From: Cocleimonas flava
GTDB taxonomy: Bacteria; Pseudomonadota; Gammaproteobacteria; Thiotrichales; Thiotrichaceae
NCBI RefSeq assembly: GCF_004339015.1
Contig: NZ_SMFQ01000002.1
Location: 993,351-1,057,350 of the forward strand
Direction of reading: 5' to 3'
Length of the DNA stretch: 64,000 bases
A program made the position numbers and the translations under genes. The notes beneath the pieces were generated by a model. That model worked only from the letters and a program-made list of their open reading frames with translations. It was not told where the DNA came from and did not search any database. Position 1 is the first letter of the stretch; every line of letters begins with the position of its first letter. This document shows positions 31,164 through 48,986 of the stretch, in pieces.

Positions 31164-31236
31164 ACTTTAAAAAAGGCGCTATGGGTGTTATTCAGTGGGG
31201 CTTAGGGCAAGTAGAAGGAGGAAATTCGAGATAAAA

Positions 31237-31251: not shown

Positions 31252-31428
31252 ATTAGTATGATAAAAAGCACCATAATAGTTTCAGGGAGATAAATAACTG
31301 CGAGTTTTGTTTATTTAAGCCCTTTTAGAAGTTGGCTCAAAGATTGCATTGTTAATTTAAATTCAAGATTTTTGTTAATTACATTAATAACTCTCAGATA
31401 CATTACCTTTTAGTTTCAGGATAAAAAG

Positions 31429-32505
31429 TTGGCTAAAGATATACAGACTCAATTCTCACCAAATGAAATTAGCGACACTATTAGTATTGCGATAATCGTA
31501 TTAGATGAGTCATTGCGGGTTCGCCAAATGAATGCTGCTGCTGAAAATTTATTTGGTCAGTCTAGAGAGCGTATTATCGATAAATCATTTTCCGTGATAT
31601 TGCATGAAGACATCATGCGGGATCACCTTGATTTTGTGATTGAAAATGAAGAGCCACAAGCGGTTCGTGGTCGCTATTTAAAAGGTCAGCAAAAGAAAGA
31701 TATTATTGTTGATTGTGTTGCTACCCCGTTTATCAAAAATTCCAAGTTAAAAGGAATTGTACTCGAGCTGTATCGAACCGATTTTCAATTAAGAATCGCG
31801 CGTGAAGAGCAGTTATTAAGTCAGCAAGAAGCTACTCAAAGTTTAGTCAGGGGAATGGCACACGAAATTAAAAATCCTTTAGGGGGATTGCGTGGTGCTG
31901 CACAGCTACTCGATTCTGAGTTAGACAGTGAAGAGTTAAAAGAATACACCCGAATTATCATTTCTGAAGCAGACCGTTTGCAGAAATTAGTAGATCGACT
32001 ATTGGGCTCAAGACAGCCAACCAAAAATCAATGGATCAACATTCACGAAGTTTTGGAGCGGGTTCGCCGATTAGTTAAAGCGGATATACCTAAGGGTGTA
32101 AATTTACAATTTGATTACGACCCGAGTATTCCCGAGTTACAAGCAGATTTGGATAATTTGATTCAAATTGTTTTTAACATTGTAGGTAATGCCTTAAAAG
32201 CGGTCGGTGATTCAGGCAACATTTTATTTAGAACACGAATTCTCAGAAATTACGTCATCAATAACAAACAGTATCGGTTAGCCCTAAAACTGGAAGTCAT
32301 TGATGATGGTGGTGGCGTTCCGGAAAATATCCGTAACAAGCTATTCTTTCCCATGATCAGCGGTTCAGCCAATGGCACTGGGCTTGGTTTATCCATCGCC
32401 CAATCATTAGCGAATCGACATCATGGGGTGATTGAGTTTACATCGGAACCCGGCGAAACCTGTTTTACGCTGTTATTACCAATAGATAATTCAAAAGCAG
32501 ATTAA
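31429..32505 (+). CDS. glnL: Nitrogen regulation sensor kinase NtrB (GlnL)
   Basis: 358-aa cytoplasmic histidine kinase. An N-terminal PAS domain (ISIAIIVLDESLRVRQMNAA at about 18-38) is followed by the H-box RGMAHEIKNPLGGLRGAAQLL near 140-160, the N-box NIVGNALKAV and the G-boxes DDGGGVPENI and GTGLGLSIAQ. This is the NtrB layout: no membrane segment, H-box with KNPLGGLRGAAQ. It phosphorylates NtrC under PII control. TTG start after an AGGAT site. No sigma-54 site precedes it. Confidence 0.94.
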   Translation: MAKDIQTQFSPNEISDTISIAIIVLDESLRVRQMNAAAENLFGQSRERIIDKSFSVILHEDIMRDHLDFVIENEEPQAVRGRYLKGQQKKDIIVDCVATPFIKNSKLKGIVLELYRTDFQLRIAREEQLLSQQEATQSLVRGMAHEIKNPLGGLRGAAQLLDSELDSEELKEYTRIIISEADRLQKLVDRLLGSRQPTKNQWINIHEVLERVRRLVKADIPKGVNLQFDYDPSIPELQADLDNLIQIVFNIVGNALKAVGDSGNILFRTRILRNYVINNKQYRLALKLEVIDDGGGVPENIRNKLFFPMISGSANGTGLGLSIAQSLANRHHGVIEFTSEPGETCFTLLLPIDNSKAD

Positions 32506-32569
32506 TCCACAGTAGCAATACGTAGTTACATTGAAATAAAACTGAAATTTTTAAAAGAGGCGAGACAAA

Positions 32570-33982
32570 GTGCCAACAAGAAAACCAGAAAAATTATGGA
32601 TAGTAGATGACGACCAGTCCATTCGTTGGGTTTTACAAAAGGCGTTAGAAAAAGCGGGTATGGACGTTCGTGCTTACGAATTTGCCAGTGATTTAATCCG
32701 CGACTTAAACGATGCTGATGTGGAAAATCCTGAAGCCGTTATTTCAGATATACGCATGCCTGGCATGAGCGGTTTTGAGTTGATTAAAGAAATTCACAGC
32801 CTTTATCCAGATTTGCCTGTGATTATAATGACGGCGCATTCGGATATGGATAGTGCAATGTCCGCATACGAAAGTGGTGCTTTTGAATACTTGCCAAAGC
32901 CTTTTGATATCAACGAGGCCACTGAACTCGCCAGACGTGCTTGCTCGATCAACAAAGTTAAAAGTGGGCAAGTTGCAGAAAATGCACCGTTAGATTCACC
33001 ACAGGAAATTATTGGTCAGTCAGTAGCAATGCAGGAATTGTTCCGCTCGATAGGGCGACTCAGTAAAACCAGTATTTCAGTTTTGATCACGGGTGAGTCT
33101 GGAACCGGTAAAGAATTGGTGGCTAAAGCCTTGCATACCCACAGCCCCAGAGCGAATAGAACGTTTATCGCGATAAACACGGCTGCAATTCCTAAAGAGT
33201 TACTTGAATCAGAATTATTTGGGCATGAAAAAGGCTCATTCACCGGCGCACAAACACAGCGAATTGGGCGATTTGAACAGGCCGATGGCGGCACGTTATT
33301 TCTCGATGAAATAGGGGATATGCCAGCAGAATTACAAACACGTTTACTTCGTGTTTTAGCGGATGGCGAATTTTATCGAGTCGGTGGCACTAAAGCGATT
33401 AAAGTTGATGTGCGTGTAGTGGCGGCAACCCATCAAAACTTAGAAGAGCACGTAAAAAATGGCACATTTCGTGAGGATTTATTCCATCGTCTAAACGTTA
33501 TTCGATTGCAGATACCAGCATTAAGAGAGCGAGATGAAGATATCATCGTTCTATTGAATCACTTCCTGGCACAAGCCGCGATTGAACTGAACGCAGAGCA
33601 AAAGCGATTGAGCAATGAAGTCAGTGATTACCTGCAAACCTTAGAATGGCCGGGTAATGTTCGTCAGCTAGAAAATGTCAGTCGCTGGTTAACCGTAATG
33701 GCAACGGGCAGTGAAATTACCATGGAGGATTTACCGCAAGAATTAAAGCAAAGCGATGAGCAAAAGGCGAGCAACTGGGAAGCGTTGTTATTTCAAAATT
33801 TATTGCAAAGACTCAATCGTGGCGACACTCGAATTCTTGATGATGTTACCCCTAAATTTGAAACCATCGCATTGAATGCGGCATTACAAAAAACCGGTGG
33901 TAGAAAAAAAGATGCGGCTGAATTACTGGGTTGGGGTAGAAATACATTAACCAGAAAGTTAAAAGAACTGGATGCTTCTTAA
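32570..33982 (+). CDS. glnG: Nitrogen regulation response regulator NtrC (GlnG)
   Basis: 470-aa sigma-54 activator. Receiver domain with the acidic triad VDDDQS and phospho-acceptor Asp in AVISDIRMPGMSG near 61; AAA+ domain with Walker A GESGTGKE near 175, the sigma-54-contact loop GSFTGA near 222 and Walker B GGTLFLDEIGDM; C-terminal Fis-type HTH (GGRKKDAAELLGWGRNTLTR). GTG start after AGAGGCGAG. It should act at the sigma-54 promoters listed here for nirB, the PP2C gene, nasA, nrtA, glnK and the urease operon. Confidence 0.95.
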   Translation: MPTRKPEKLWIVDDDQSIRWVLQKALEKAGMDVRAYEFASDLIRDLNDADVENPEAVISDIRMPGMSGFELIKEIHSLYPDLPVIIMTAHSDMDSAMSAYESGAFEYLPKPFDINEATELARRACSINKVKSGQVAENAPLDSPQEIIGQSVAMQELFRSIGRLSKTSISVLITGESGTGKELVAKALHTHSPRANRTFIAINTAAIPKELLESELFGHEKGSFTGAQTQRIGRFEQADGGTLFLDEIGDMPAELQTRLLRVLADGEFYRVGGTKAIKVDVRVVAATHQNLEEHVKNGTFREDLFHRLNVIRLQIPALRERDEDIIVLLNHFLAQAAIELNAEQKRLSNEVSDYLQTLEWPGNVRQLENVSRWLTVMATGSEITMEDLPQELKQSDEQKASNWEALLFQNLLQRLNRGDTRILDDVTPKFETIALNAALQKTGGRKKDAAELLGWGRNTLTRKLKELDAS

Positions 33983-34929: not shown

Positions 34930-35991
34930 TCAAGTGTTGATATCCGGCGAAATACTAAATTTGTCATCTACATACTTGATGATGAATTGTGTTGATTGAT
35001 CATCTTTGAGTATTTCTCTCGCCACTAACGGTTCCAGTTTCACTCTGATATGTTGTGCGAGATTGCGTGCTCCGTACTCTTCATCGTAATAAGTGTATAG
35101 CTGCTGTCTCGCGGTTTCATCTAATTCAAGAGTGGCGTTTTTGGCTTTTAGTCGTAGATTTAGTTTTTCAAGTTCCACATCCAGTATCTTATCTAGAAAC
35201 TCATCGCTTAAATAATCATACGATAAAATTCGATCGATTCTGTTTAAAAACTCAGGATCAAATTTTTTCTGTAAGGCTTGCTTAAGATGGCTTTTTTCAT
35301 CGATGGTATTGCCCCCAAGCCACTTTTTTATCCCTTTGTTTTGTGCGGCGCGATGTGCATTTAATTCTTTAACGCCAATATTGCTGGTCATGAATATTAG
35401 GCAGTTACTAAAATCAATCTCATGCGTACCGGATGACAACACGAGATGACCGGTATCCAGCACATTCAATAGCGCGCGGATTACTTCTGTACTGGCTTTT
35501 TCAAGCTCATCGAATAACACAATGCCGGGTTTGCTAAAGCTACCTTTAATAGCATCGCTATCAAATAAAGAATGCCCTTCTTTACTGCCAACATAACCCG
35601 GAGGAGCGCCCGTTAAAGAGGCGGCATAATGTTCTTGAGCGAGCGTATTCATATCTATTCGGCAAAAGTTGTCGGTACTGCCCAAGATACTTTTTGCAAT
35701 GATTTTGACGGTTTCGGTTTTGCCGACACCTGTGGGGCCAAGAAATAGGTTAACCGCCAATGGACGATGTTTTATGCCGAAGTCTGCTTTCACCAGATAT
35801 AACATTTCCTCTACTGAGGACAAAACATCATCTTGACCGATGATGTTTGTCCGTAGAGCATTCATAACGTCTTCAGGTTTGAAATGAAAGCGTGATTGTC
35901 GGGCTACAGTATTATCCGTAGTAGGCTTTTCATATCTAGCCTTATCGATACTGGTCTGATTTGCTGACAATCTTTCGTTTATGAATGGCAT
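34930..35991 (-). CDS. amiB: AmiB-like ClpB-type AAA+ ATPase
   Basis: About 353 aa, a single AAA+ domain of the ClpB/ClpA D2 type plus the C-terminal ClpB small domain, with no Clp N-domain and no D1. Walker A GPTGVGKT, pore-loop region TGAPPGYVGSKEG, Walker B IVLFDELEKA, sensor 1 TSNIG, arginine finger FLNRID and sensor 2 GARNL are all present. The P. aeruginosa amidase operon has such an ATPase, AmiB, directly after amiE, as here. I start it at ATG 35991; ATG 36078, inside the amiE coding end, is the alternative and neither has a strong ribosome site. Partner and substrate are unknown. Confidence 0.82.
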   Translation of the reverse strand: MPFINERLSANQTSIDKARYEKPTTDNTVARQSRFHFKPEDVMNALRTNIIGQDDVLSSVEEMLYLVKADFGIKHRPLAVNLFLGPTGVGKTETVKIIAKSILGSTDNFCRIDMNTLAQEHYAASLTGAPPGYVGSKEGHSLFDSDAIKGSFSKPGIVLFDELEKASTEVIRALLNVLDTGHLVLSSGTHEIDFSNCLIFMTSNIGVKELNAHRAAQNKGIKKWLGGNTIDEKSHLKQALQKKFDPEFLNRIDRILSYDYLSDEFLDKILDVELEKLNLRLKAKNATLELDETARQQLYTYYDEEYGARNLAQHIRVKLEPLVAREILKDDQSTQFIIKYVDDKFSISPDINT

Positions 35992-36049
35992 GATCGACTC
36001 GGTTTTTTTGCTCGAATATCTTTGTTCGAATGTCTTAATAACGTAAGCG

Positions 36050-37096
36050 TTATTCGCCGGCTGTTTTTTCTTTGCCATCAACGGGCAAATCACCGACAGG
36101 GCATTCTGCAACACCGATAGTTTTACGAGTCAGTGCTTCCACATCTTCTCGGGTTTTTTCGGCATCCAAAACCCAGCTTCGGTAAAAATCAAATGGGCAA
36201 TCAGCAACGCCTTTGTCGCCGTCGCCAGAGTTGTAAACACCGGTATAACCACGATGCAATAATTTAAAGAGGTGGTTTTGAGATTGATCGTTTGCACGAG
36301 CATCGCGAATCTGGCTAACAGATAACTGAGCGTATTGAACACCCATATCTTCTTCGCCACATTCACCTAATGTTCTTCCATCAAAGCCAATAAGTGCTGA
36401 GTGTCCAAAGTAAGAATAAACACCATCAAAACCAGTCGCGTTAGCAACGGCAACGTAACTATTATTTGCCCACGCCATAGACTTCGCCATCATCACTTGC
36501 TGTTCTTTAGCAGGGTACATATAGCCCTGACATCGAATGATTAATTCTGCGCCTTTCATGGCACAGTCACGCCAAATCTCTGGATAGTTGCCATCATCAC
36601 AGATAATTAAGCTTATTTTCATGCCCTTAGGGCCTTCACTGACATACGTGGTATCGCCTGGATACCAACCTTCAATAGGACACCATGGAATACATTTGCG
36701 GTATTTCTGAACTATTTCACCTTGATCATTAATCAACACTAAAGTGTTGTATGGCGCTTTATTAGGGTGATCTTCGTGTCTTTCTCCTGTTAGAGAAAAT
36801 ACGCCCCATGTATTTGCTTCTTTACATGCGGCACTGAATATTGCTGTTTCATCGCCCGGAATAGTGGCCGCTGTAGCCATCATTTCGTCTTTGTCGTACA
36901 TGATGCCCATGGTGCTGTATTCAGGAAATATAACTAAATCCATTCCTGGAAGGCCTTGTTTCATGCCTTTGATCATTTCCGCAATATTGTGTGCATTCTC
37001 TAACACTTCTTCACGAGTATGTAATCTTGGCATTTTGTAATTTACTACAGCAACACCCACTGTATCTGCACTGCTGGAAACGTCACCGTGTCTCAT
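36050..37096 (-). CDS. amiE: Aliphatic amidase
   Basis: 348 aa, nitrilase superfamily, hydrolyses short-chain amides such as acetamide to the acid and ammonium. It starts [20 protein letters not shown], nearly identical to the P. aeruginosa AmiE opening as I remember it. The catalytic residues are visible: Glu in VIFPEYST near 59, Lys in [15 protein letters not shown] near 134 and Cys in [12 protein letters not shown] near 166. The full family length is kept. It follows fmdB by 116 nt and precedes amiB. The amiC, amiR and amiS genes of Pseudomonas are absent; regulation probably comes from the divergent kinase-regulator pair. Confidence 0.95.
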
Positions 37097-37212: not shown

Positions 37213-37566
37213 TTAATGACTGATCATCCAAGGTCGCATAGAAGGAAACATCTTGTTACCTTCAGCCGTATACATAAGGTTGCTCGCTCGTTTTTTGTGT
37301 TCGCAACCGCAACCACTTTTAAGCATTTCGGCATTTTCTGCGCGTGAATCAACCGTTGAATGTTGAGGCTCATGTTGAGCCTTCTCATTCTTTTCCATCG
37401 CTTGTTTTTTCTCTTTAGGCATTTCAAAAAGTGCAGGCGACATGATAATCACGCGTGGTGATAACGTTTGACACTCAGGACAACAAGCTGGCTTTGCATG
37501 GTCTTCCATACTTGCAAGCTCATAGAACAAACCGTGTTCAGAACATTTATAATCGTAAACTGGCAT
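37213..37566 (-). CDS. fmdB: FmdB-family zinc-ribbon protein
   Basis: 117 aa. The N-terminus MPVYDYKCSEHGLFYELASM and the CPEC motif near 33-36 form the FmdB zinc ribbon. The rest is a charged, low-complexity linker (EKNEKAQHEPQHS) and a second cysteine motif CGCEHKK near 90, then an unusual tail. In Methylophilus the fmdB gene beside formamidase was proposed to be regulatory. It lies 19 nt after fmdA. Confidence 0.85.
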   Translation of the reverse strand: MPVYDYKCSEHGLFYELASMEDHAKPACCPECQTLSPRVIIMSPALFEMPKEKKQAMEKNEKAQHEPQHSTVDSRAENAEMLKSGCGCEHKKRASNLMYTAEGNKMFPSMRPWMISH

Positions 37567-37585: not shown

Positions 37586-38818
37586 TTAGTCTTCATCCGG
37601 TGCAATAGGCATATCAATACTGCCATCAAGGTATTTTGTTGGGCCATCTGCACTTGGATTAATGTCGAAATCAAAGATGTCGGTAGGCAACCACAGAGTG
37701 GCACAGGAGTTGGGCACATCGACCACACCACTGATATGGCCCTGCACTGGTGCAGTTCCCAGAAGTGAGTATGCTTGTGCGCCTGAGTAACCAAACTTTT
37801 TCAGGTATTCGATAGCATTCAAACAAGCCTGTCTGTAGGCAACCTGCACATCTAGGTAATGCTGTTCGCCTTCTTCATCGACAGAGATGCCTTCAAAGAT
37901 TAGGTAATCTTCATATTTTGGAGCAATAGGACTTGGTTTGAAAATAGGGTTTTTAATACCGTAAGCTTCCATACCGTTTTTAACCAGATTTACACGCATG
38001 TGAATCCAGCCCGCCATTTCGATTGCACCACAGAATGTGATTTCGCCATCACCCTGACTGAAATGAAGGTCGCCTACTGAAAGTCCGCCGCCTTTTACAT
38101 AAACCGGGAAGTAAACTTTTGAGCCACGAGATAAATCTTTAATATCACAGTTACCGCCATGTTCACGTGGAGGTACGGTTCTAGCCGCTTCTGCAGCCGC
38201 TGCTTTAGCGTCGTCTTTAGACATACGTCCCATGTGTGCTGTATCTACATAAGGAAGTGTAGCGAGTGGCGGTACTCTGTCTGGGTCTGTCGCCACTAAT
38301 GCTGATTCACGCTTATTCCACTCATCAAGTAGTTCCTGTGATGGCAGACAACCAATTAAGCCAGGGTGTATAAGACCTGCAAATTCTACGCCTGGGATAT
38401 GACGTGAGCTGGTGAACATACCTTTAAAATCCCAGATAGATTTTTGTGCGTCTGGGTAATGCTCTGTTAAGAAGCCACCGCCATTTTGTTTAGAGAAGAA
38501 ACCGTTAAAGCCCCATTGGCTATCATCAAAAGTACCGATATCAAGTATATCTACAACTAGCAAATCACCAGGTTCTGCACCTTCAACACCGACAGGACCA
38601 GATAGGAAATGTACTTGCGTTAAATCGACGTCTCTAACATCGGCAGCATCATCGTCATTTTTTATTTGTCCGCCAGTCCAGTCGATACATTCGATAATGA
38701 AATCATCGCCTGGTTTCACCGTTTCGACCATCGGAATATCTGGATGCCAACGATTATGAAGTTTGTCATTATCGTAAGCAGACTCGTTTAGGTTTACTTT
38801 AATAATTGTGTCTGTCAT
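37586..38818 (-). CDS. fmdA: Formamidase (FmdA/AmdA acetamidase-formamidase family)
   Basis: 410 aa, hydrolyses formamide to formate and ammonium. Family landmarks: NRWHPDIPMVETVKPGDDF near 21-40, HFLSGPVGVEGAEPGDLLVVDI near 70, HPGLIGCLPS near 147, and GDLHFSQGDGEITFCGAIEM near 245. This is unrelated in fold to AmiE, so the cluster carries two distinct amide hydrolases. Located directly after urtE in the same transcript direction, with AGGAG before the ATG. Confidence 0.94.
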   Translation of the reverse strand: MTDTIIKVNLNESAYDNDKLHNRWHPDIPMVETVKPGDDFIIECIDWTGGQIKNDDDAADVRDVDLTQVHFLSGPVGVEGAEPGDLLVVDILDIGTFDDSQWGFNGFFSKQNGGGFLTEHYPDAQKSIWDFKGMFTSSRHIPGVEFAGLIHPGLIGCLPSQELLDEWNKRESALVATDPDRVPPLATLPYVDTAHMGRMSKDDAKAAAAEAARTVPPREHGGNCDIKDLSRGSKVYFPVYVKGGGLSVGDLHFSQGDGEITFCGAIEMAGWIHMRVNLVKNGMEAYGIKNPIFKPSPIAPKYEDYLIFEGISVDEEGEQHYLDVQVAYRQACLNAIEYLKKFGYSGAQAYSLLGTAPVQGHISGVVDVPNSCATLWLPTDIFDFDINPSADGPTKYLDGSIDMPIAPDED

Positions 38819-38892: not shown

Positions 38893-39582
38893 CTATACGG
38901 ATAAATATTTCTTGATTTGCTCGGTGTTTACTTCATCTCTAAGATCCTCGTGTATAAAATTACCCTTATCGATAACGATGATGCGATCTGCGATTGCCAT
39001 AGTGAAACTAAGCACCTGTTCTGAAACGATAATTGTGATATCACGCATCTTTTTAATTTCATTAAGAACGTTTGCGATATCTTTAATAATGGAAGGTTGA
39101 ATACCTTCGGTTGGCTCATCTAGTAATAAGACTTTAGGGTTTGTGACAAGTGCTCTCGCAATAGCTAATTGTTGCTGCTGTCCACCAGAAAGGTTTCCAC
39201 CTTTACGTTTTCGCATATCTTGTAATACAGGGAATAGGGCATAGATATCATCTGGGATTCTCTTTAATTTCGAGACTTCCATTCCTGTTTCTATATTTTC
39301 TTGAACGGTCAGTGAAGGAAAAATCATTCTGCCTTGAGGGACGTAGGCAATACCGTTTTCGACTCTTTTGTAACTGTCTGTATTCGTAACATTTATACCA
39401 TCGATACTAATTTGACCGTCGGTGGAATCAAGAATGCCAATCAAGGATTTAAACAGCGTGGTTTTACCCATTCCATTGCGGCCCATAATTGCTAATGTTT
39501 CATTTTTTGGGACAGTAAAATCCAGGCCATGTATGACCTCACTTTGACCGTAGCTAACTTTTAAGTTTGAGACGTCTAGCAT
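38893..39582 (-). CDS. urtE: Urea/amide ABC transporter ATP-binding protein UrtE
   Basis: 229 aa, LivF/UrtE class. Walker A GRNGMGKTT near 34-42, signature LSGGQQQQLAIARAL near 132-146, Walker B VLLLDEPTEGIQPSI. The form GRNGMGKTTLFKSL with EGIQPSI is typical of UrtE rather than LivF. Substrate may be urea, formamide or short amides; the formamidase next to it argues for amides as well. Confidence 0.9.
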   Translation of the reverse strand: MLDVSNLKVSYGQSEVIHGLDFTVPKNETLAIMGRNGMGKTTLFKSLIGILDSTDGQISIDGINVTNTDSYKRVENGIAYVPQGRMIFPSLTVQENIETGMEVSKLKRIPDDIYALFPVLQDMRKRKGGNLSGGQQQQLAIARALVTNPKVLLLDEPTEGIQPSIIKDIANVLNEIKKMRDITIIVSEQVLSFTMAIADRIIVIDKGNFIHEDLRDEVNTEQIKKYLSV

Positions 39583-39636: not shown

Positions 39637-40383
39637 TTAGTGACCAAGATATACTTCAATAACTTTTGGATCGTTTTGTACTTCTTCCATATTTCCGGCC
39701 GCTAGTATTTTGCCTTGGTGTAAAACGGTTACCTTATGCGCTATACGCTCAACAAACTCCATGTCGTGTTCTATAACGAGAACAGAACGACCTTTACTAA
39801 TTTTGTTCAAAAGTTCTGCGGTTTGTTCTCTCTCTTTTACACTCATGCCGGCTACAGGCTCATCGAGCATTAATAATTGAGGGTCCTGAATAAGTAACAT
39901 GCCGATTTCAAGCCATTGCTTTTGGCCATGACTTAATAATCCAGCTTCAGTATCTAAGTCATCTTGCAGCATGATTTCACTGGCTGTTTGATTGATCTTT
40001 TCAAGAACTTCGGAGGATCGTTTAAACATCAATGAGCCAGCAACAGTTCGACCATAAGGGTAAGAAATTTCGAGGTTTTCCAGGACGGTTAAATTTTCAT
40101 ATATCGATGGTGTTTGAAATTTACGTCCAACCCCCGCCCTTACAATTTCATGTTCAGACATTTTAGTAAGCTCCTCATTTAGGAACTTAATACTGCCCGA
40201 GGTTGATTTGGTTTTACCGCAAATCAAATCTAGAACGGTAGTCTTACCTGCCCCATTGGGTCCAATGACTACGTGGAGCTCATTTTGATCAAGATAAAAA
40301 TTCAAGCTATCTACCGCTTTGAAACCATCAAATGAAACGGTGAGATCTTCTATTGCTAAAGTAAAATCAGTATTTGAATTCAT
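39637..40383 (-). CDS. urtD: Urea/amide ABC transporter ATP-binding protein UrtD
   Basis: 248 aa, LivG/UrtD class. Walker A GPNGAGKTT near 38-46, LICGKTKSTSGSI typical for UrtD, signature LSHGQKQWLEIGMLL near 149-163 (the SHGQKQWLEIGM variant is a UrtD hallmark), Walker B LLMLDEPVAGM, switch VIEHDMEFV. Forms the ATPase pair with UrtE. Confidence 0.92.
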   Translation of the reverse strand: MNSNTDFTLAIEDLTVSFDGFKAVDSLNFYLDQNELHVVIGPNGAGKTTVLDLICGKTKSTSGSIKFLNEELTKMSEHEIVRAGVGRKFQTPSIYENLTVLENLEISYPYGRTVAGSLMFKRSSEVLEKINQTASEIMLQDDLDTEAGLLSHGQKQWLEIGMLLIQDPQLLMLDEPVAGMSVKEREQTAELLNKISKGRSVLVIEHDMEFVERIAHKVTVLHQGKILAAGNMEEVQNDPKVIEVYLGH

Positions 40384-40440: not shown

Positions 40441-41592
40441 TTAAGCTGCACTCTCATCAGACTTCTTTTCAACAATTTCGGGTGAGTCTTCTTTTGTTTT
40501 TTTAGATTTTGAAAATCTATCGGTAATGTAGTGTCCGTAGTCATCCCAAAGCCCTGCTAAACCATTCGGGAAGAACATAACGACAGAGATGAATAAGCCA
40601 CCCATCAAAAACAGCCATAATTCAGGAAATGATTCAGAGAAGGCGGTCTTACCGAAGTTAATTAATAAGGTTCCGTAGACTGCACCTATGAGTGACATTC
40701 TGCCACCAACTGCGGCAAAGATGACCATCTCAATCGAAGGAACGATGCCAACAAAAGAAGGGGACATGAAGCCCACCTGCAGTGTGAACATCGCGCCGCC
40801 GATCGATGAAATTAAGGCAGAAAAACAGAAAATGAATATTTTAAAATTGGAAACGTCGTAGCCAGAGAAACGCACACGATCTTCCTTATCTCTAATGGCT
40901 AACAGCAAGCTACCAAACTTACTCGTTAGAATAAGTCTTGAGAGTAAAATAACTCCTAACAGCAACGCTACATTGATGAAGTAGAAGATGTACTTTGCAC
41001 TATCAGTCGTGATGTCCCAGCCGTTTAAGGTACGTAAATCTGTAATACCATTAATACCGCCTGTATATCCTTGCTGACCCACAATTAATATTGTCAAAAT
41101 TACTGCTATAACTTGCGTAATTATCGCAAAATAAACCCCACCAACACGGCGTTTAAACATTGCTGCACCGATAATGTAAGCAAAAGCGGCAGGTAATATC
41201 AGGATGGCTAAAATGGTTAATGTAAGACTGTTGAAAGGCTCCCAAAACCAAGGTAGTGAAGTTAACTGGTTCCAATCCATGAAATCAGGAATACCAGGGG
41301 TAGATTGGATTTTAGTGTTCTCTACAGATGAAGCTTCAAGCTTCAAAAACATGGCCATGCCATAGCCACCTAAGCCAAAGAAAACACCTTGTCCTAAGCT
41401 TAATATTCCACCGTAACCCCAAAGAAGAACAAGGCTGACTGCAGGGAATGCATAAGTAAGGTATTTGCCCACTAAATTAAGACGAAAAATATCTAAAAAT
41501 AAAGGGAAGATAACAAGTATCAAGGTCGCTAAGATCAGAAACCCTGTGAGACCTTTTTTGCCTCCCATCATTTTTTCATATACAAAGTTCAT
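40441..41592 (-). CDS. urtC: Urea/amide ABC transporter permease UrtC
   Basis: 383 aa, LivM/UrtC class with about nine membrane segments. LLWGYGGILSLGQGVFFGLGGYGMAMFLKL near 57-86 is the UrtC signature, and the loop WFWEPFNSL follows. VGFMSPSFVGIVPSIEMVIFAAVGGR precedes the last segments. A charged lysine/serine tail ends the protein. It pairs with UrtB. Confidence 0.92.
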   Translation of the reverse strand: MNFVYEKMMGGKKGLTGFLILATLILVIFPLFLDIFRLNLVGKYLTYAFPAVSLVLLWGYGGILSLGQGVFFGLGGYGMAMFLKLEASSVENTKIQSTPGIPDFMDWNQLTSLPWFWEPFNSLTLTILAILILPAAFAYIIGAAMFKRRVGGVYFAIITQVIAVILTILIVGQQGYTGGINGITDLRTLNGWDITTDSAKYIFYFINVALLLGVILLSRLILTSKFGSLLLAIRDKEDRVRFSGYDVSNFKIFIFCFSALISSIGGAMFTLQVGFMSPSFVGIVPSIEMVIFAAVGGRMSLIGAVYGTLLINFGKTAFSESFPELWLFLMGGLFISVVMFFPNGLAGLWDDYGHYITDRFSKSKKTKEDSPEIVEKKSDESAA

Positions 41593-41642: not shown

Positions 41643-42566
41643 TTAACGACGAACCTTGCTCGCGAATAAACCTTCAGGCTTAAACATTAAGATCAAGACA
41701 AGTGCAAATAAGGTGTATACCTTTGCCATTGATCCACTGATAAAGAATTCTAATATTGATTGTGCTTGAGCGATGCTAAAGGCCGATACGATTGTGCCGA
41801 TCAAGCTTGCTGCACCACCAAATACAACTACCATAAATGTATCAACGATATACAAAGTGCCGGTTGTTGGGCCTGTTGAAGCTATGGTTGTAAAAGCTGC
41901 TCCTGCGATGCCTGCTATTCCACAACCTAACGCAAAGGTATATCTATCTACTTTTTTAGTATTTATACCGACAGCACCACTCATTACTCGATTTTGAGTA
42001 GTTGCTCTTACACGTAATCCCCAGCTTGATTTGTACAGTAAGTAGAAAACACCTAAAGTTACAACGGCAGTTAAAGCTAGAACAAACATGCCATTTAAAG
42101 GAATATCAATAGTCTCTGTTGGCTGGTAAGAACCTAATAACCAGTCAGGTAAAGTTGGGCTTACTTCTCTTGCTCCGAAAAGAGTTCGGAATGATTGCTG
42201 CATAATTAAGCTTAAACCCCAGGTTGCAAGGAGAGTATCTAGAGGTCTTTTGTATAGATGCCGTATCAAGACAAATTCAGCTAAGTAGCCTAAAATTCCT
42301 GCAACAAAGAAGGCGACCACGATTGCAAAAATAAAGTAATAAGGCATGAAACTAGGAAAATAAGTTTCTGTAAGTGAAGACATAAAATAGGTCGTATATG
42401 CGCCAACAGCCATGAATTCACCATGAGCCATGTTAATAACGCCCATTTGACCAAATATAATTGCCAGGCCAAGTGCCATTAATAGAAGTACGCTGAATAA
42501 ACTAATACCAGCAAATCCTTGCATTGCGAATATAGAAACCAACTCGCTAGATGTGTAATCGCCCAT
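41643..42566 (-). CDS. urtB: Urea/amide ABC transporter permease UrtB
   Basis: 307 aa, LivH/UrtB class. It begins ELVSIFAMQGFAGISLFSVLLLMALGLAIIFGQMGVINMAHGEF in essence; the GVINMAHGEFMAVGAYT box near 40-56 is diagnostic. TLLATWGLSLIMQQSFRTLFG and VTLGVFYLLYKSSWGLRVRAT follow. The usual long periplasmic N-terminal domain of some UrtB proteins is absent, as is common when the gene belongs to a formamide-type cluster. Confidence 0.92.
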   Translation of the reverse strand: MGDYTSSELVSIFAMQGFAGISLFSVLLLMALGLAIIFGQMGVINMAHGEFMAVGAYTTYFMSSLTETYFPSFMPYYFIFAIVVAFFVAGILGYLAEFVLIRHLYKRPLDTLLATWGLSLIMQQSFRTLFGAREVSPTLPDWLLGSYQPTETIDIPLNGMFVLALTAVVTLGVFYLLYKSSWGLRVRATTQNRVMSGAVGINTKKVDRYTFALGCGIAGIAGAAFTTIASTGPTTGTLYIVDTFMVVVFGGAASLIGTIVSAFSIAQAQSILEFFISGSMAKVYTLFALVLILMFKPEGLFASKVRR

Positions 42567-42695: not shown

Positions 42696-43958
42696 TTATT
42701 GATAACCAGCTGGGAATGGATCTGGTTCAATTAACTCAGATGTGTAAACAACTGTTGCTTGACCGTCTTTCTTCCATTGGCCAACACGAGCTTTACTCCA
42801 TAAGTGATGGTTCTTATGTAACTTCACATAACCTTCTGGTGCAGTCGTTAATTCAATATCGCCTTTTTCAGATTCTGCTACGACTTTATCAACATCAAAT
42901 GATCCCGCTCTTTCAACCGCAGCTTTCCATAACCAAGGACCTAAGTAAGCAGCTTGAGTTACATCACCTATTACACTATCGTCACCCCACATTTCCTTAA
43001 ACGCAGCAACAAATTTCTTGTTGTTTTCGTTATCCTGACTTTGGAAATACTTCATGATTGAGTAGAAACCTTCAAGGTTTTCACCACCGATACCCAATAC
43101 TTCATCTTCTGTAACTGAGATTGTTAACAGTGTTTGTTTCTTAGAGGTGATACCTGCAGCTTTTAGCTGTTTGAACCATGCAACGTTACTTCCGCCAACG
43201 ACAGCAGCGTAGATAACGTCAGGCTTTTTCAAACGGATTTTGTTGATTACAGAACCGAATTGAGTATCGCCAAGAGGCTTGTATTCTTCACCAACAACCT
43301 TTCCACCTAATACTTTTTCAATGTGCTTACGCGCTATTTTCATTGAGGTTCTTGGCCAGATATAGTCAGAACCGATCAGGTAGAACGTTTTTGCTTTCTT
43401 TTCTTTTGCTACCCAGTTAAGTCCATCGAGGATTTGTTGAGTTGCTTCCTGACCTGTGTAGATAACGTTTTTAGACTGTTCCAGACCTTCGTAGAAAGTT
43501 GGGTAGTAGAGAAGTCCATTTTCTTTTTCAAATACAGGTAAAACAGCCTTACGAGAAGCCGAAGTCCAGGCGCCAAATACTGCAGCTACTTTATCTTGAA
43601 CTAATAATTTACGACTTTTTTCAGCAAATGTAGGCCAGTCACTAGCTCCATCTTCCTGAATCACTTCTATTTTGCGGCCTAAAATACCGCCCATATCGTT
43701 TATTTGTTTGATCGCAAGTTTTTCAGCTTCCTGAGCACCTGTTTCACTGATAGCCATTGTTCCAGTAAGTGAATGCAGTATTCCTACTGTTACTGTGTCA
43801 TCCGTTACAGCTAAACCAGTAGTGCTTATTTCTGACGTTGGTGGTGTTGCCGCAATACAAGATGTAGATAAGAAAATAGCGGCAGGTAATGCCATAAATC
43901 CTTTTAATATATGTCGGCGCAATTCATTGTGCCTTTTGGAGAAACCTGAATACTTCAT
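42696..43958 (-). CDS. urtA: Urea/amide ABC transporter binding protein UrtA (FmdD-like)
   Basis: 420 aa, type 1 periplasmic binding fold. The N-terminus has a possible Tat motif (RRHILKG, residues 14-20) before a hydrophobic stretch ending STSCIAA. Mature part: TVTVGILHSLTGTMAISE, GASDWPTFAEKSRKLL, VFGAWTSASRKAVLPVFE, LLYYPTFYEGLEQS, all hallmarks of UrtA/FmdD/AmiC-type urea and amide receptors. First gene of the minus-strand cluster; its promoter must be in the 235-nt gap before the divergent kinase gene. Confidence 0.92.
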   Translation of the reverse strand: MKYSGFSKRHNELRRHILKGFMALPAAIFLSTSCIAATPPTSEISTTGLAVTDDTVTVGILHSLTGTMAISETGAQEAEKLAIKQINDMGGILGRKIEVIQEDGASDWPTFAEKSRKLLVQDKVAAVFGAWTSASRKAVLPVFEKENGLLYYPTFYEGLEQSKNVIYTGQEATQQILDGLNWVAKEKKAKTFYLIGSDYIWPRTSMKIARKHIEKVLGGKVVGEEYKPLGDTQFGSVINKIRLKKPDVIYAAVVGGSNVAWFKQLKAAGITSKKQTLLTISVTEDEVLGIGGENLEGFYSIMKYFQSQDNENNKKFVAAFKEMWGDDSVIGDVTQAAYLGPWLWKAAVERAGSFDVDKVVAESEKGDIELTTAPEGYVKLHKNHHLWSKARVGQWKKDGQATVVYTSELIEPDPFPAGYQ

Positions 43959-44193
43959 GTTTTTACCTCTTTAATAAAATGGAAGTTGCTTGACTGTCAT
44001 TGTCCAGCGAAAGTATCCGTATCTAGAGGGTTTCTGTGAATTCGCCATTCGCACCAGTGAGGTACGTCATTTGACGCATATCCTTTGGCATGAAACTTGT
44101 ATACCGATAGTAGAGGCTGTCTTTATATGATCCGAACTGGATTAAATAGGGATGTTAATCCTGATTAAATAGTTTGGTTTGAGTGACATTGGT

Positions 44194-47100
44194 ATGAATG
44201 AACAGCATGTTTCAAAATTCAGAAGAAAATACAATCGTTTGGCTGCCAACCAGACGATGGAAGATTATGCGTTACGTTTTACCGCAAAAAGCGGACGTTT
44301 ATGGTCGGTGTCACGTGTCTCTAACACTGCTTTGGGGGCTATCTCTTTTCTGGCGTTAGAAGCCATTGGTGGTGCGATTACTCTACGTTATGGTTTTGAC
44401 AATACCGTGATCGCGGTGATGGTCGTTTCACTTATTATATTTCTTACAAGTTTGCCAATTAGCTATTATGCGGCGCGCTATGGTGTAGACATTGATTTAC
44501 TTACCAGAGGGGCAGGTTTTGGCTATATTGGTTCAACCATAACCTCGCTAATTTATGCCTCTTTTACCTTTATTTTCTTTGCCATAGAAGCCGCAATAAT
44601 GTCGCTGGCACTGGAAATGCTATTCGATATACCGCTTAGCATTGCTTATCTGCTGAGCTCATTAATGGTCATACCGCTAGCGACTCACGGAATAACCTTT
44701 ATCAGTCGTTTTCAATTATGGAGTCAGCCACTTTGGTTGGTATTACAAATACTCCCATTTGTTTTTATTCTTTATTATGAATGGTCTGCTGTTGAAGACT
44801 GGACAAACTATAAAGGAACCCTGGAACAGCAACAGAATACTACCGGCTTTAATCTGATCTTTTTTGGTGCGGCATCAGGCGTCATATTCTCGTTAATCGC
44901 ACAAATAGGAGAACAAGTTGATTTTTTACGTTTTTTACCTGAGAAGAATGCATCGAATAGTCGCCGTTGGTGGTTAGCTCTTATCTCTGCTGGACCTGGG
45001 TGGATTATAGTCGGAGCGATTAAAATCCTAGCTGGTTCATTTCTGGTGGTGCTTGCTATAAACCATGGAATACCGGAGGAACTTGCTGATAATCCAACTC
45101 AAATGTACTTAATTGCGTTTAGTTTTTTAACAGACTCCCCAAACGTGGTTTTAGCACTAACCGGTATCTTCGTTATTATCAGCCAATTAAAAATTAACGT
45201 AACAAATGCTTATGCAGGGTCTATTGCCTGGTCAAACTTCTTCTCTCGTTTAACTCACAGTCATCCTGGGCGAGTTGTCTGGCTGGTTTTCAACGTAACA
45301 ATAGCTTTGCTACTGATGGAGCTGGGTATATATGAAGCGCTAGAGCATATACTCGGCGTTTACGCCAATGTGGCGGTAGCGTGGGTAGGAGCACTAGTCG
45401 CAGATTTAGTCATTAACAAACCACTTGGTTATAGCCCGAAGCACATAGAATTCAAGCGTGCACATTTATACGATATTAATCCGGTTGGTTTTGGTGCAAT
45501 GCTTATTGCTTCAGTTGCTGGTATCGTCTCTTATACTGGGGTATTTGGTGAATTAGCTCATGCTTTGTCACCTTATATTTCTTTGGTAACAGCATTTATA
45601 GTGTCTCCGATCATTGCAATCTATACCAAAGGGAAATACTACATAGCGCGTAAATCAAATCTACAAAAAACATCAACAAGAATCTTGACCTGTACTGTTT
45701 GTCAAAATGATTTTGAGACAGAGGATATGACCTCATGCCCAGCTTACGGAGGAGCTATTTGTTCTTTATGCTGCTCATTAGACGGGCGCTGTCATGATCA
45801 ATGTAAGGCTGGTGCTAGATTTAATGATCAACTGAAATTATTTATCAATAGCATTTTGCCGCATAATATTGCCGCTAAAATTGATAATAGATTGCTGCAA
45901 TTTGTATTCTTGCTTAGTTTGATTTCTTCTTTGATAGCAACGGTTTTCTGGCTTGTTTATCAACAGGTTCCTAATGAGAATATAGAGGCAAACGAATTAA
46001 TTACATCAGCGATGAAGAATGTATTTGTTCTGCTAATGATCATTGTGGGTGTATTAGTTTGGTTATTTGTATTAGCGACAGAAAGCCGACAATTTGCACT
46101 AGAAGAATCGCAACGCCAAACGCATTTGCTGAGCAAAGAGATAAAAGCTCACGGACAGACAGGACAAGCACTGCAAGAGGCAATGAAAACGGCAGATTCA
46201 GCCAATCTGGCCAAAAGCAGATACCTTATCGGTATCAGTCATGAATTAAGAAGCCCTTTAAATACAATACTAGGTTACACGCAGTTATTAGAGAAAGATC
46301 AACGCTTGCTCGAAGATCAGGAAGCCAAGCTGACATTGATTCATCGTAGTGGCGAGCATCTAAACGATTTGATCGAAGGTATGCTGGATATATCCCGAAT
46401 TGAAGCAGGTCGAATCGAATTGCGACGCGATCAACTGCCGTTAAAAATGTTAGTAGATGATTTGGCAGAGATGTTTAGCATGCAGGCGGATGCTAAAGAT
46501 TTGACGTTTGAATATGACGTCACGAATCAGATCCCTGATGTTGTCATTGGGGATGAAAAGCGCTTGAGACAGATACTCATCAACCTGCTTTCGAACGCAA
46601 TAAAATACACCCAAAGTGGGGGGGTGACTTTTTCGGTTATCTATCGCAATCAAGTGGCTAAATTTATAATTTCAGATACCGGGGTGGGAATTGGAACGGA
46701 AGATAAAGAACTTATTTTTCAACCTTTTGAAAGAATCCGCACTCTTGATTCTCCACAAATTCCAGGTGTCGGTTTAGGGCTAACGATTAGCAAATTTTTT
46801 GCCGAAATAATGGGGGGCGAAATCACCCTGCAAAGCGAACACGGCAAAGGCAGTAGTTTTCAATTATCCCTGATGTTGCCGAATGTTTCAGAGCCTACTT
46901 TACGCACCGAAGTTATCAGGCGCATAGCGTCTTATGAAGGTAGTAAAAAAACCATCATGGTGGTCGATGATGAACCTTCACATCGTGGTCTAATCAGTGA
47001 AATTCTATTACCGCTTAATTTTGACGTTTTAGAGGCTTCTGACGCTTATAACTGTTTAGAAGGTTTGGAGGATAAAAACGTCGATTTGTTTCTGCTCGAC

Positions 47101-47604
47101 ATCTCTATGCCAGGCATGAATGGGTGGCAATTAGTGAAAGTTCTGCGAAATAGAGGCATAAAAACCCCCATTATTATGGTATCTGCTGATGCTTTTGAAA
47201 GCCCTGAAAACAATCCTAAAAATCAGGATGTTGATGCTGATAAGAGGCTGCACAATGATTATTTAACCAAACCTATTAATGATAATTTGCTGCTGGATAA
47301 AATCGCCAATGTGTTGGGTTTAAGGTGGACTTATGAAACCGAGAAAGGACTGCTTAAAAACAAAAAAACAGAACCTAAAGATAAACCAGACTTAACAACT
47401 CTATTCAGCGGGATTAAAAAAAGTGATTGTCATGAACTTATCTCAATGGCGGAAATAGGGTATATACAAGGTATCGAAAAAATATTAACACGCATGGATA
47501 AATTAGAAAGTAATCAAGAACTTGTTAAACGGATTCGCAAATATGTGAAATGTTGTAAGTTTGCAAAAATTATTTCATTGGCTGAAAAAGGCTTAGATTC
47601 ATGA
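44194..47604 (+). CDS. NCS1-permease-fused hybrid sensor histidine kinase
   Basis: About 1136 aa. Residues 1-490: NCS1-type (cytosine/purine/hydantoin) permease-like domain with about 12 membrane segments, opening YNRLAANQTMEDYALRFTA. Residues 500-537: eight cysteines (CTVC, C, CSLCC, C, C), a likely metal site. Two more membrane segments near 570-635. Then H-box GISHELRSPLNTILGY (His near 683), N-box with IKYTQSGG, G-boxes DTGVGIG and GVGLGLT, a receiver with Asp near 969 (LLDISMPGMNGW), and a helical C-terminal domain. The ATG at 44194 is chosen over a TTG five codons earlier. ATGA overlap with the next gene. It probably senses an imported or external amide, urea or nucleobase-like ligand. 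Confidence 0.88.
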   Translation: MNEQHVSKFRRKYNRLAANQTMEDYALRFTAKSGRLWSVSRVSNTALGAISFLALEAIGGAITLRYGFDNTVIAVMVVSLIIFLTSLPISYYAARYGVDIDLLTRGAGFGYIGSTITSLIYASFTFIFFAIEAAIMSLALEMLFDIPLSIAYLLSSLMVIPLATHGITFISRFQLWSQPLWLVLQILPFVFILYYEWSAVEDWTNYKGTLEQQQNTTGFNLIFFGAASGVIFSLIAQIGEQVDFLRFLPEKNASNSRRWWLALISAGPGWIIVGAIKILAGSFLVVLAINHGIPEELADNPTQMYLIAFSFLTDSPNVVLALTGIFVIISQLKINVTNAYAGSIAWSNFFSRLTHSHPGRVVWLVFNVTIALLLMELGIYEALEHILGVYANVAVAWVGALVADLVINKPLGYSPKHIEFKRAHLYDINPVGFGAMLIASVAGIVSYTGVFGELAHALSPYISLVTAFIVSPIIAIYTKGKYYIARKSNLQKTSTRILTCTVCQNDFETEDMTSCPAYGGAICSLCCSLDGRCHDQCKAGARFNDQLKLFINSILPHNIAAKIDNRLLQFVFLLSLISSLIATVFWLVYQQVPNENIEANELITSAMKNVFVLLMIIVGVLVWLFVLATESRQFALEESQRQTHLLSKEIKAHGQTGQALQEAMKTADSANLAKSRYLIGISHELRSPLNTILGYTQLLEKDQRLLEDQEAKLTLIHRSGEHLNDLIEGMLDISRIEAGRIELRRDQLPLKMLVDDLAEMFSMQADAKDLTFEYDVTNQIPDVVIGDEKRLRQILINLLSNAIKYTQSGGVTFSVIYRNQVAKFIISDTGVGIGTEDKELIFQPFERIRTLDSPQIPGVGLGLTISKFFAEIMGGEITLQSEHGKGSSFQLSLMLPNVSEPTLRTEVIRRIASYEGSKKTIMVVDDEPSHRGLISEILLPLNFDVLEASDAYNCLEGLEDKNVDLFLLDISMPGMNGWQLVKVLRNRGIKTPIIMVSADAFESPENNPKNQDVDADKRLHNDYLTKPINDNLLLDKIANVLGLRWTYETEKGLLKNKKTEPKDKPDLTTLFSGIKKSDCHELISMAEIGYIQGIEKILTRMDKLESNQELVKRIRKYVKCCKFAKIISLAEKGLDS
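46602..46634 (+). repeat. G7 variant of the G6 repeat inside the kinase gene
   Basis: AAAATACACCC, AAAGTGGGGGGGTGAC, TTTTTC. It matches the intergenic copy at 49918-49950 over the core and the downstream T-tract, yet it codes for KYTQSGGVTF in the kinase N-box region. It may be chance, since this peptide is close to what the family needs. Confidence 0.6.
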
Positions 47605-48509
47605 TTGAAAAAGAAACAAAAGGCATCGTATTAGTTGCCGATGATTCCGCGGAAGCGCTGGGTATGATCAATGAAGCATTGATCAATGAAGGTTATACAG
47701 TGCTGGTCGCAATGAATGGTGAACAAGCTATTTCAATAGCTAACCGCATGGTGCCCGACATTATTTTAATGGACATTATCATGCCGATAATGGATGGCGT
47801 AGAAGCCTGCAAAGAGCTAAAGAAAAATAGTGATTTAACGGATATACCCGTTATTTTTATGACGGGCTTAAGTGACAAAGATTATCTGTTTCAAAGCTTG
47901 GATGCGGGTGGGGTTGATTACATTAATAAACCCGTACAGTTCGATGAGTTATTGGCAAGAATCAAAGTACATTTAAGGAATTCAAAGTCGACACGAAGTG
48001 CTCACAAAGCATTGAATCAGATTGGTCAACTAGCATTTACCTGTGACGCAAACGCCAAAATAATATGGGCCACAAATACGGCGCAAAAGCTATTGGAAAG
48101 TGCCGGTATTAATACTGAAGAAAATTCTGAATTGATGTCTGAGCAAATCCGGTTTTGGCTATCCTCAAATCCAGAGAAGCATGGAAGCCTGTGGCTCAAA
48201 GATTTTGATAAACCGATTCAGGTGTGTTTTCTAGGAAGACCAGCACCCGGTGAATACTTACTCAGGCTGACTAATGATGATGAAATCAGTACACGCGAAT
48301 TATTTTGCGAGCGCTTCTCCGTCACAGAGAGAGAATCAGAAGTATTGTTTTGGCTGGTACGGGGGAAAACCAATCGAGAAATTGGTCAAATATTATCAAT
48401 GAGTCCAAGAACGGTTAATAAGCATCTAGAACCGATATTTAGAAAATTAGGTGTAGAAAACAGAACCTCGGCGACAGCCGTGTGTTTACGTTTTTTGAGC
48501 CATCATTAA
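47601..48509 (+). CDS. LuxR-family response regulator
   Basis: 302 aa. N-terminal receiver with VADDS near 12-16, phospho-acceptor Asp in IILMDIIMPIMDG near 55 and the Lys in INKPVQF near 107; a central unassigned region (residues 130-225) that could be PAS-like (FTCDANAKIIWATNTAQKLL); C-terminal LuxR/NarL HTH with TERESEVLFWLVRGKTNREIGQ and MSPRTVNKHLEPIFRKLGVENR. It overlaps the kinase stop by 4 nt, so the two form one two-component system. Targets are probably the divergent urt-fmd-ami cluster. The urease operon lies downstream but has its own sigma-54 promoter. Confidence 0.9.
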   Translation: MIEKETKGIVLVADDSAEALGMINEALINEGYTVLVAMNGEQAISIANRMVPDIILMDIIMPIMDGVEACKELKKNSDLTDIPVIFMTGLSDKDYLFQSLDAGGVDYINKPVQFDELLARIKVHLRNSKSTRSAHKALNQIGQLAFTCDANAKIIWATNTAQKLLESAGINTEENSELMSEQIRFWLSSNPEKHGSLWLKDFDKPIQVCFLGRPAPGEYLLRLTNDDEISTRELFCERFSVTERESEVLFWLVRGKTNREIGQILSMSPRTVNKHLEPIFRKLGVENRTSATAVCLRFLSHH

Positions 48510-48649: not shown

Positions 48650-48773
48650 TTAGGTGTTTAGAGTATTTCGTTCTGTCATGGTGTGTTGAATTTTGCACCA
48701 TAAAAAGCTGACATTTTCGGCAAACAGTACGTTAACTTTTAAGAGCCATTTAAAATGCGTGAGGATATATGCT

Positions 48774-48986
48774 ATGACTAAATTATTTCTAACAGTAATT
48801 ACTGTGTTTTTAAGCCTGGGCTTTTCAGTCACAGCATCTGCTCATTCAGGGCACGAAAACGTTTCAGTAATGCATTTGATGTTTCATGCTGTAGTCACAG
48901 TAAGTATTTACCTGTCGCTAATGGCAGCTGGATTTTACGTAATTAAACGTTTACCTAAAGCGATAAAGCAACGAGTTAAGAAATAA
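48774..48986 (+). CDS. Small membrane protein at the head of the urease operon
   Basis: 70 aa from ATG 48774, preceded by GAGGAT. Signal-like hydrophobic segment (residues 4-20), then SAHSGHENVSVMHLMFHAVV and one more membrane segment, ending in a basic tail KRLPKAIKQRVKK. Four histidines lie between the two segments, which recalls the start of HupE/UreJ nickel proteins, but it is far too short to be one. It precedes ureD by 3 nt and is the first gene under the sigma-54 promoter. Function unknown; nickel handling is a guess. Confidence 0.7.
   Translation: MTKLFLTVITVFLSLGFSVTASAHSGHENVSVMHLMFHAVVTVSIYLSLMAAGFYVIKRLPKAIKQRVKK

Follow-up and report, generated by a model that had tools for sequence, protein, structure and literature searches.

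A hybrid sensor kinase with an NCS1-like permease domain faces an amide and urea utilization operon in Cocleimonas flava

Sensor kinases in which a transporter acts as receptor are few, and how they signal is unsolved. In the SLC5/STAC kinases CbrA, CrbS/MxtR and RpuS, a whole transporter lies ahead of the histidine kinase (PMC13022988, PMC7918813, PMC5715377, PMC9100948); CbrA has been shown to transport histidine (PMC13022988, PMC7918813), and CrbS is also a hybrid kinase. The ammonium sensor kinase of Candidatus Kuenenia stuttgartiensis likewise joins a transporter for a nitrogen nutrient to a histidine kinase, but the transporter is Amt, the ligand ammonium and the host an anammox bacterium (PMC5764959). 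AmiC/AmiR controls an operon for amide import and amidase, but by a periplasmic-binding-type sensor and an RNA-binding antiterminator and without a membrane kinase (PMC13209695). Here, we describe a hybrid kinase and its LuxR-type response regulator encoded in a 64,000-nucleotide stretch of the Cocleimonas flava genome (contig NZ_SMFQ01000002.1, positions 993,351 to 1,057,350, forward strand; hereafter the window, whose numbering is used throughout). Unlike the SLC5/STAC kinases, this kinase carries an NCS1-like transporter, an eight-cysteine segment plus two helices at the STAC position and, between it and the facing operon, a candidate operator of its own; its ligand class, we infer, is that of amides and urea. 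We consider it likely that the pair forms a phosphorelay in which the transporter domain serves as a ligand-gated transceptor of amides and urea, and that this relay activates the genes for their use.

The kinase starts at the ATG at 44194, which yields 1136 residues, or alternatively at a TTG upstream (44179). The order of its parts given in the original prediction, i.e., permease, eight cysteines, two helices, kinase core and receiver, was confirmed by Pfam, by a structural model and by an alignment of 81 kinases, some of which are near-copies of one another.

44194..47604, + strand: hybrid sensor kinase, 1136 residues, with NCS1-like permease, eight cysteines, two helices, HisKA, HATPase_c and receiver (open reading frame, Pfam, model)
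44269..45651, + strand: NCS1-like permease domain, residues 26-486, here the sensor module (PDB matches, hhalign)
45691..45804, + strand: eight-cysteine segment, residues 500-537, a probable zinc-binding module (cysteine invariance)
45886..46125, + strand: two long helices, residues 565-591 and 597-644, probably transmembrane plus a signalling helix (secondary structure of the model)
46213..46410, + strand: HisKA domain with phospho-acceptor His683 in SHELRSPLN (Pfam)
46549..46878, + strand: HATPase_c domain (Pfam)
46954..47304, + strand: receiver domain of the kinase with Asp969 (Pfam)
47601..48509, + strand: response regulator of 302 residues with receiver and LuxR-type (GerE) DNA-binding domain, the probable output (Pfam)

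The protein is a hybrid histidine kinase: HisKA with its histidine and HATPase_c are followed by a C-terminal receiver with its aspartate, and His683 and Asp969 were both invariant among three aligned full-length proteins. No HPt domain was found in the Pfam scan of the kinase. The regulator, which is of the LuxR/NarL type by its Pfam domains Response_reg and GerE, overlaps the kinase reading frame by 4 nucleotides. Helices 565-591 and 597-644 of the model probably cross the membrane.

The approximately 490 N-terminal residues fold as an NCS1 permease in an AlphaFold model of residues 1-645 (mean predicted local distance difference test score, pLDDT, 79.3; predicted template modelling score, pTM, 0.81), and the closest structures are CodB and Mhp1. 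When the span 26-486 of the model was compared with PDB structures, CodB reached a Z score of 33.2 and Mhp1 26.4-28.5, against 23.1 at most for the next rows; ranks 1-5 in Foldseek and 1-4 in VIA-align 2 were all CodB and Mhp1 chains. Since SLC5-fold chains such as 5nva scored 21.4 against the 33.2 of CodB, NCS1 is the closer fold, in a comparison of structures made without a direct SLC5 profile comparison. The SSF domain had no Pfam match in the kinase at E≤1. Sequence profiles point in the same direction: a single hhalign comparison with a profile of four true NCS1 permeases gave E 1.5e-5 and a probability of 80%, and a profile built from four kinase N-termini recovered five PF02133 permeases among 369 genomes, with E values of 8e-8 to 6e-5 per genome. 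Two kinase-less relatives exceed the PF02133 cut-off of 23.5 bits, i.e., L169 with 31.8 bits and L208 from Klebsiella with 37.7 bits. Together, structure, profile comparison and these two siblings support the NCS1 type that had been predicted. PF02133 failed for L206, L207, L209, L210 and L211 at E≤0.01 and for L113 and L168 at E≤1. A phmmer search of the N-terminus against PDB sequences gave no match, and a profile search two matches at chance level. The C. flava genome itself has no PF02133 match and therefore offers no canonical NCS1 gene as a source of the domain. The NCS1 permeases Mhp1, CodB, PA0476 and MetT share the fold of the sensor and are distantly related to it in sequence, but no kinase part is described for them in the available portions of PMC11633122 and PMC13390362.

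The permease part is the best-conserved region of the kinase: median identity to the window kinase among the 81 sequences was 65.6% in the sensor, 53.3% in the kinase core and 41.8% in the receiver, and 163 of 487 sensor columns were at least 98% conserved. When 65 kinases and 16 permease-only relatives were considered together, 71 positions, including Glu132, Lys333, Asn335 and Asn338, carried the same residue with at most one exception.

The eight cysteines (500, 503, 515, 523, 526, 527, 533 and 537) were invariant in 81 of 81 kinases and may bind a metal. Modelled alone, the segment reached a pLDDT of 73, and its comparison with the PDB gave no match at E≤0.001, with only weak zinc-finger look-alikes (RING, PHD, FYVE). 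STAC was not matched in the Pfam scan of the kinase, a general scan in which no direct comparison with STAC was made. The invariance of the cysteines could mean that this segment is the real sensor, of zinc, redox state or nickel, with the permease domain as an anchor only; urease is a nickel enzyme. However, the segment also ends the permease-only relatives, where the last 75 residues hold at least eight cysteines, four to five or, in one case, a single one, so that the full set is not needed everywhere. Being shared in this way, the segment is a part of the permease and not of the signalling machinery, and we regard a cysteine-based sensor as very improbable.

On the other strand, an operon diverges from the kinase. 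Its urt, fmd and amiE genes were assigned by NCBIfam, all over the curated cut-offs.

42696..43958, - strand: urtA, substrate-binding protein (TIGR03407, 516.9 bits, cut-off 492.75)
41643..42566, - strand: urtB, permease (TIGR03409, over cut-off)
40441..41592, - strand: urtC, permease (TIGR03408, over cut-off)
39637..40383, - strand: urtD, ATPase (TIGR03411, over cut-off)
38893..39582, - strand: urtE, ATPase (TIGR03410, over cut-off)
37586..38818, - strand: fmdA, formamidase (NF045496, 782.5 bits, cut-off 500)
37213..37566, - strand: fmdB-type zinc-ribbon protein (TIGR02605, over cut-off)
36050..37096, - strand: amiE, aliphatic amidase (NF009802, 713.8 bits, cut-off 427)
34930..36114, - strand: AAA ATPase with ClpB-like D2 domain, called AmiB in this analysis (Pfam PF07724, AAA_2, and PF10431, ClpB_D2)

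The UrtA of the window is the sole match over the family cut-off in its own genome. No AmiC/AmiR is present at the locus, where the sizeable reading frames between 34930 and 48509 are the operon, the kinase and the GerE regulator; this search did not extend beyond the locus. Divergence of the kinase from urtABCDE-fmdAB-amiEB, as predicted, thus stands on NCBIfam and Pfam assignments and on its conservation in relatives (see below), but the accompanying statement that Pseudomonas uses AmiC/AmiR instead is not general. In Ectopseudomonas guguanensis, a hybrid kinase and a LuxR regulator lie beside a second urtABCDE, with fmdA at the next locus number, and the available part of that report names both regulatory genes without analysing them (PMC13296017). 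A Pseudomonas veronii strain has a urtABCDE-fmdAB-amiE locus without amiC/amiR (PMC13209695).

The surroundings of the kinase were compared in its nearest relatives, the best 80 of 556 in named genomes when ranked by similarity, which include Alcanivorax, Marinobacter, Thalassolituus, Cellvibrio, Bradyrhizobium, Afipia, Roseibium, Azospirillum and some Betaproteobacteria. UrtA, at least 65% identical, is divergent from the kinase in 76 of the 80, an arrangement far beyond chance. A relative of the regulator was found in 78 loci, FmdA in 69 and AmiE in 37, and urt, fmdA or amiE was present in 78. The four loci without UrtA are L053, which has fmdA-fmdB, L066, which has amiE, and the contig-end pieces L029 and L085, which account for the two loci lacking all three. 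Matching against the window genes revealed no urease genes in any of the 80. Because 11 loci are shorter than 15 kb, the counts of present genes are lower bounds.

As urtA so regularly faces the kinase, the latter might read the working state of the UrtABCDE importer rather than bind a ligand itself, in the way that BceS-type kinases read their ABC transporter. However, the stretches of L149, L151, L157, L158 and L160 contain a kinase and urease but no urt gene, and those of L168 and L226-L228, where the kinase lies opposite a permease-fmdA-fmdB-amiE operon, likewise lack urt genes. We regard this explanation, too, as very improbable.

Beyond the nearest relatives, the neighbourhood survey bore out the proposed association with amide or urea genes in another form, as several remoter kinases face urease. 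Profile matches were found in 23 of 369 genomes of the class (17 strong, with E<1e-150, one fragment of the cysteine region and five weak matches, the PF02133 permeases mentioned above) and in 56 of 398 genomes of the phylum, and forty further stretches, picked for diversity, were mapped for neighbours. The kinase faces or adjoins a urease operon instead in L147, L149, L151, L153, L157, L158, L160 and L162; in L178 and L181, it faces or adjoins a porin gene together with urease and a urt operon of lower similarity. In Sphingobium TomTYG65, ureDABC-ureFG and one more accessory gene are followed by kinase and regulator. Altogether, 123 loci, duplicates included, were classified as 99 amide, 11 urease, one with another urt operon and 12 with none of these; four of the latter are explained by contig ends (L029, L085), by a short duplicate (L005, longer as L181) and by amiE (L066), so that eight remain. 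Two fused paralogs were mapped in seven genomes. In four of these (G629, G761, G608, G542), one copy faces amide genes and the other urease; G479 has an amide copy and a second copy near fmdA, G283 combines an amide copy with one that lacks such neighbours, and G171 has none at either copy. On a quick tree of 77 rows, including two permease-only relatives (one on a very long branch) and a two-row outgroup, the urease label changes 6 times, with 5 changes forced by starred branches, and none of 500 shuffles gave so low a number. Thus, the urease association is clustered, yet it has arisen repeatedly.

Some members of the family are built differently. In G171, L165 (contig C3, approximately 5852-9520; identical to L114) is an NCS1-like module fused to PAS, GGDEF and EAL domains for cyclic di-GMP turnover instead of a hybrid kinase, and its paralog L164 (identical to L103) carries PAS-PAS-HisKA; urt, fmd, ami and ure genes are all absent from the stretches fetched for both. 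L176 (G670, contig C6) is a kinase core of this type that retains no more of the sensor than its tail (profile positions 519-637) and has its regulator on the other strand; this copy seems to have lost its permease part.

Matches were also found in 536 plasmid records, 342 of them from Klebsiella, and those sampled are mostly annotated as ATP-binding protein, ArcB or response regulator. In Klebsiella pneumoniae MGH 39, plasmid NZ_CP072950.1 (L212, 9822-13324) has the kinase divergent from a urt cluster with the palindrome described below in between; the annotated formamidase of this plasmid matches the window AmiE (37%), not FmdA. Two records of Acinetobacter phage MD-2021a (CAKLQF020000001.1 and CAKLQH020000001.1) encode a relative of the kinase annotated as arcB, and these records are probably bacterial DNA rather than evidence of a phage gene.

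The sensor domain also occurs without a kinase. Of 17 such permease-only relatives, 11 from the genome search and six hand-picked from the plasmid matches, 16 are part of, or adjacent to, gene groups for urease, formamidase or amidase. All 11 from the genome search are in a urease or an fmdA-fmdB-amiE operon: seven directly follow ureG (L169, L221-L225 and L229, the last split over two frames), and four head fmdA-fmdB-amiE opposite a kinase (L168, L226-L228). G850, G857 and G860 contain permease-only genes of both kinds. Among the six plasmid cases, five have such neighbours. The gene precedes ureEFG-HupE/UreJ-ureDABC in Acinetobacter ursingii, lies opposite fmdA-fmdB in Moraxella osloensis, follows ureG in K. 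pneumoniae, precedes an aliphatic amidase and an AAA ATPase in Arthrobacter U41 and, in Methylovirgula HY1, stands between a kinase-regulator pair facing fmdA-fmdB and an aliphatic amidase; the case from Streptomyces has no urease, formamidase or amidase neighbour. Databases name these proteins allantoin permease, cytosine permease or hypothetical protein. In Mycobacterium smegmatis, the 'cytosine permease' msmeg_3402 and the 'formamidase' msmeg_3403, probably neighbours to judge by their locus numbers, are both upregulated when nitrogen is limiting (PMC4617892), and the former may be a candidate for a relative in Actinomycetota. The 'cytosine permease' of Klebsiella (L208, 7962-9569) and the 'allantoin permease' of Acinetobacter (L206, 7971-9578), both in urease operons, are probably misannotated urea permeases, and a function is thereby suggested for the proteins that carry such names in urease operons.

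Because of these neighbours, urea and short amides are favoured over nucleobases as ligands, and the positions of the permease-only genes argue for this more than the kinase's own position does. It is rather probable, with less assurance than for the phosphorelay itself, that a clade of NCS1-type permeases for urea and short-chain amides has gone unrecognised. Its members, currently annotated as allantoin or cytosine permeases, would serve urease, formamidase and amidase genes in bacteria ranging from Klebsiella and Acinetobacter to Arthrobacter. The module of this clade, permease plus cysteine segment, would have become the sensor of hybrid kinases and, in one genome, of a PAS-GGDEF-EAL protein, and the kinases would have re-specialised between amide and urea repeatedly. 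If true, importer and sensor for one nutrient share one fold, and the permease-only siblings offer controls for testing how a transporter became a receptor. That the NCS1 family also takes a non-nucleobase compound is known from MetT, which transports a guanidine compound, probably coupled to protons (PMC13390362).

The intergenic region between kinase and urtA contains a conserved palindrome.

44063..44078, no strand: candidate operator TACGTCATTTGACGCA, consensus TACGTCA-N2-TGACGTA, between kinase and urtA (conservation)
44012..44040, - strand: TTCACA-17-GATACT, promoter-like, directed at urtA and immediately downstream of the operator (scan, placed by eye)

Exact dyads TACG-N8-CGTA were present in 34 of 63 dereplicated intergenic regions, whereas approximately 0.25 would be expected from letter shuffles, and the best site matched at least 11 of 14 letters in 49 of 63 regions as opposed to 1 of 63 in regions shuffled once. 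In the 4.49-Mb genome, no site other than 44063-44078 comes within one mismatch of the consensus; with up to two mismatches there are 2 sites, against 15 per strand for a control pattern read backwards. The palindrome recurs at other loci: it is flanked by kinase and permease in L168 and L226-L228, by porin and kinase in L179 and by urtA and kinase on the Klebsiella plasmid, and in L178 and L181 it is located where kinase and porin meet (the start codon of the porin is not settled there). In Sphingobium TomTYG65, two copies with two mismatches each (L216, 1285 and 2102) lie between a divergent gene for a urea ABC transporter and the urease operon whose last genes are kinase and regulator, an indication that the regulon may be wider in this strain. 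The promoter towards urtA is a suggestion only, because a simple scan found 11 promoters where 14.6 were expected, i.e., no excess over shuffles. A sigma-54 type pattern was tried and rejected, with 187 matches against 184 expected.

We propose the following mechanism. The NCS1-like domain would bind formamide, acetamide, urea or a closely related small amide in the manner of a permease and perhaps still transport it. The conformational change would run via the cysteine module and the two following helices to the HisKA/HATPase core, after which phosphate would pass to the receiver of the kinase and on to the LuxR-type regulator. The phosphorylated regulator would then bind TACGTCA-N2-TGACGTA between the two gene blocks and activate transcription in both directions, of urtABCDE-fmdAB-amiE for amide import and hydrolysis and of its own gene.

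Several observations weigh against this proposal. PF02133 matched none of 47 kinase N-termini at E≤1, because of which the kinase is termed NCS1-like rather than a member of PF02133. Of the residues of the Mhp1 substrate and sodium sites (Trp117, Gln121, Ser312, Thr313 and Asn318), two are not kept in the alignments: hhalign and MAFFT agree in placing Glu132 at Gln121 and Lys333 at Ser312, which points to a remodelled site unless the alignment is wrong. The survey of the 80 nearest relatives kept the most similar ones, a choice that favours the amide clade. In eight loci (L164, L165, L167, L174, L175, L177, L179, L180), the fetched stretch lacks urt, fmdA, amiE and urease genes alike, L179 being a 5.7-kb contig with a porin. 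No residue pattern that splits urea-linked from amide-linked members could be established; frequencies yielded several candidates, but the 4 to 6 independent pairs are too few to decide. The consensus of the palindrome was drawn from the same 63 regions in which it was counted. At 12 of 14 letters, the palindrome is missing at all eight urease-facing loci listed before, at the scanned urease loci with a permease-only gene and in Methylovirgula L211, where fmdA lies opposite the kinase; the urease-facing loci and L211 must use another site. It is likewise absent, L179 excepted, from the approximately eight loci without amide or urea genes.

With respect to the binding site, hhalign and MAFFT align the rest of transmembrane helix 8 beyond Lys333 differently. 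As a lead, a lysine at the position of Ser312 would fit sodium-independent operation. For MetT, residues F47, W117, W231 and T260 have been named (PMC13390362).

The changed residues also bear on an alternative in which the kinase controls these genes but responds to general nitrogen status, to a compound resembling nucleobases or to a breakdown product (ammonium or formate); the permease domain would then be a relic or a generic membrane sensor. Nucleobases and allantoin are the usual NCS1 cargo (PF02133 description; PMC11633122), one genome joins the module to PAS-GGDEF-EAL and to PAS-PAS-HisKA with no amide or urea genes nearby, and the neighbour survey covered urt, fmd, ami, ure, amt/ntr, porin and NCS1 permease genes but not nucleobase catabolism. 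However, the sensor half is the best-conserved part of the protein, and 16 of the 17 permease-only siblings are located at urease, formamidase or amidase genes. We therefore regard this alternative as unlikely and retain the amide/urea transceptor.

No NCS1-fused kinase and no NCS1 permease for urea or amides was found in the open-access titles and starts of abstracts searched, a search mostly outside of which subscription papers lie. Next to the known SLC5 and Amt types, the NCS1 transporter class, the ligand class and the operator appear to be new among transporter-fused kinases; NCS1 would be a third class, and one with a predicted ligand class and operator. Furthermore, a regulator is hereby assigned to the widespread urt-fmd cluster, for which the literature examined names none with a function. 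A 2024 review on formamide contains neither 'histidine kinase' nor 'urtA' (PMC10781810). The 'urea transport system' published for plasmids of K. pneumoniae ST307/CG307 comprises UrtA, UrtB, UrtC and AmiF (PMC5506382, PMC13060141). The cluster on the MGH 39 plasmid, which the kinase faces, has the same make-up; 'histidine kinase' does not appear in the main text of PMC5506382, nor 'histidine' or 'two-component' in that of PMC13060141.

Directly downstream of the regulator, on the same strand, the window contains a urease operon, named by sequence, whose proteins match the ure genes of L206, L208 and L216. Co-transcription with the regulator is possible from this layout. Since no palindrome precedes this operon at 11 of 14 letters, direct control of urease is not supported in C. 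flava. Between the regulator and ureD lies a reading frame of 97 residues (48693-48986) that has no NCBIfam match; of the nearest relatives, L002 retains it at 98% and L004, less well, at 40%. Beyond the other end of the amide operon, at 29406-33982, amt-, glnK-, ntrB- and ntrC-like genes were recognised by sequence, with no family search, so that this part of the window constitutes a general nitrogen block.

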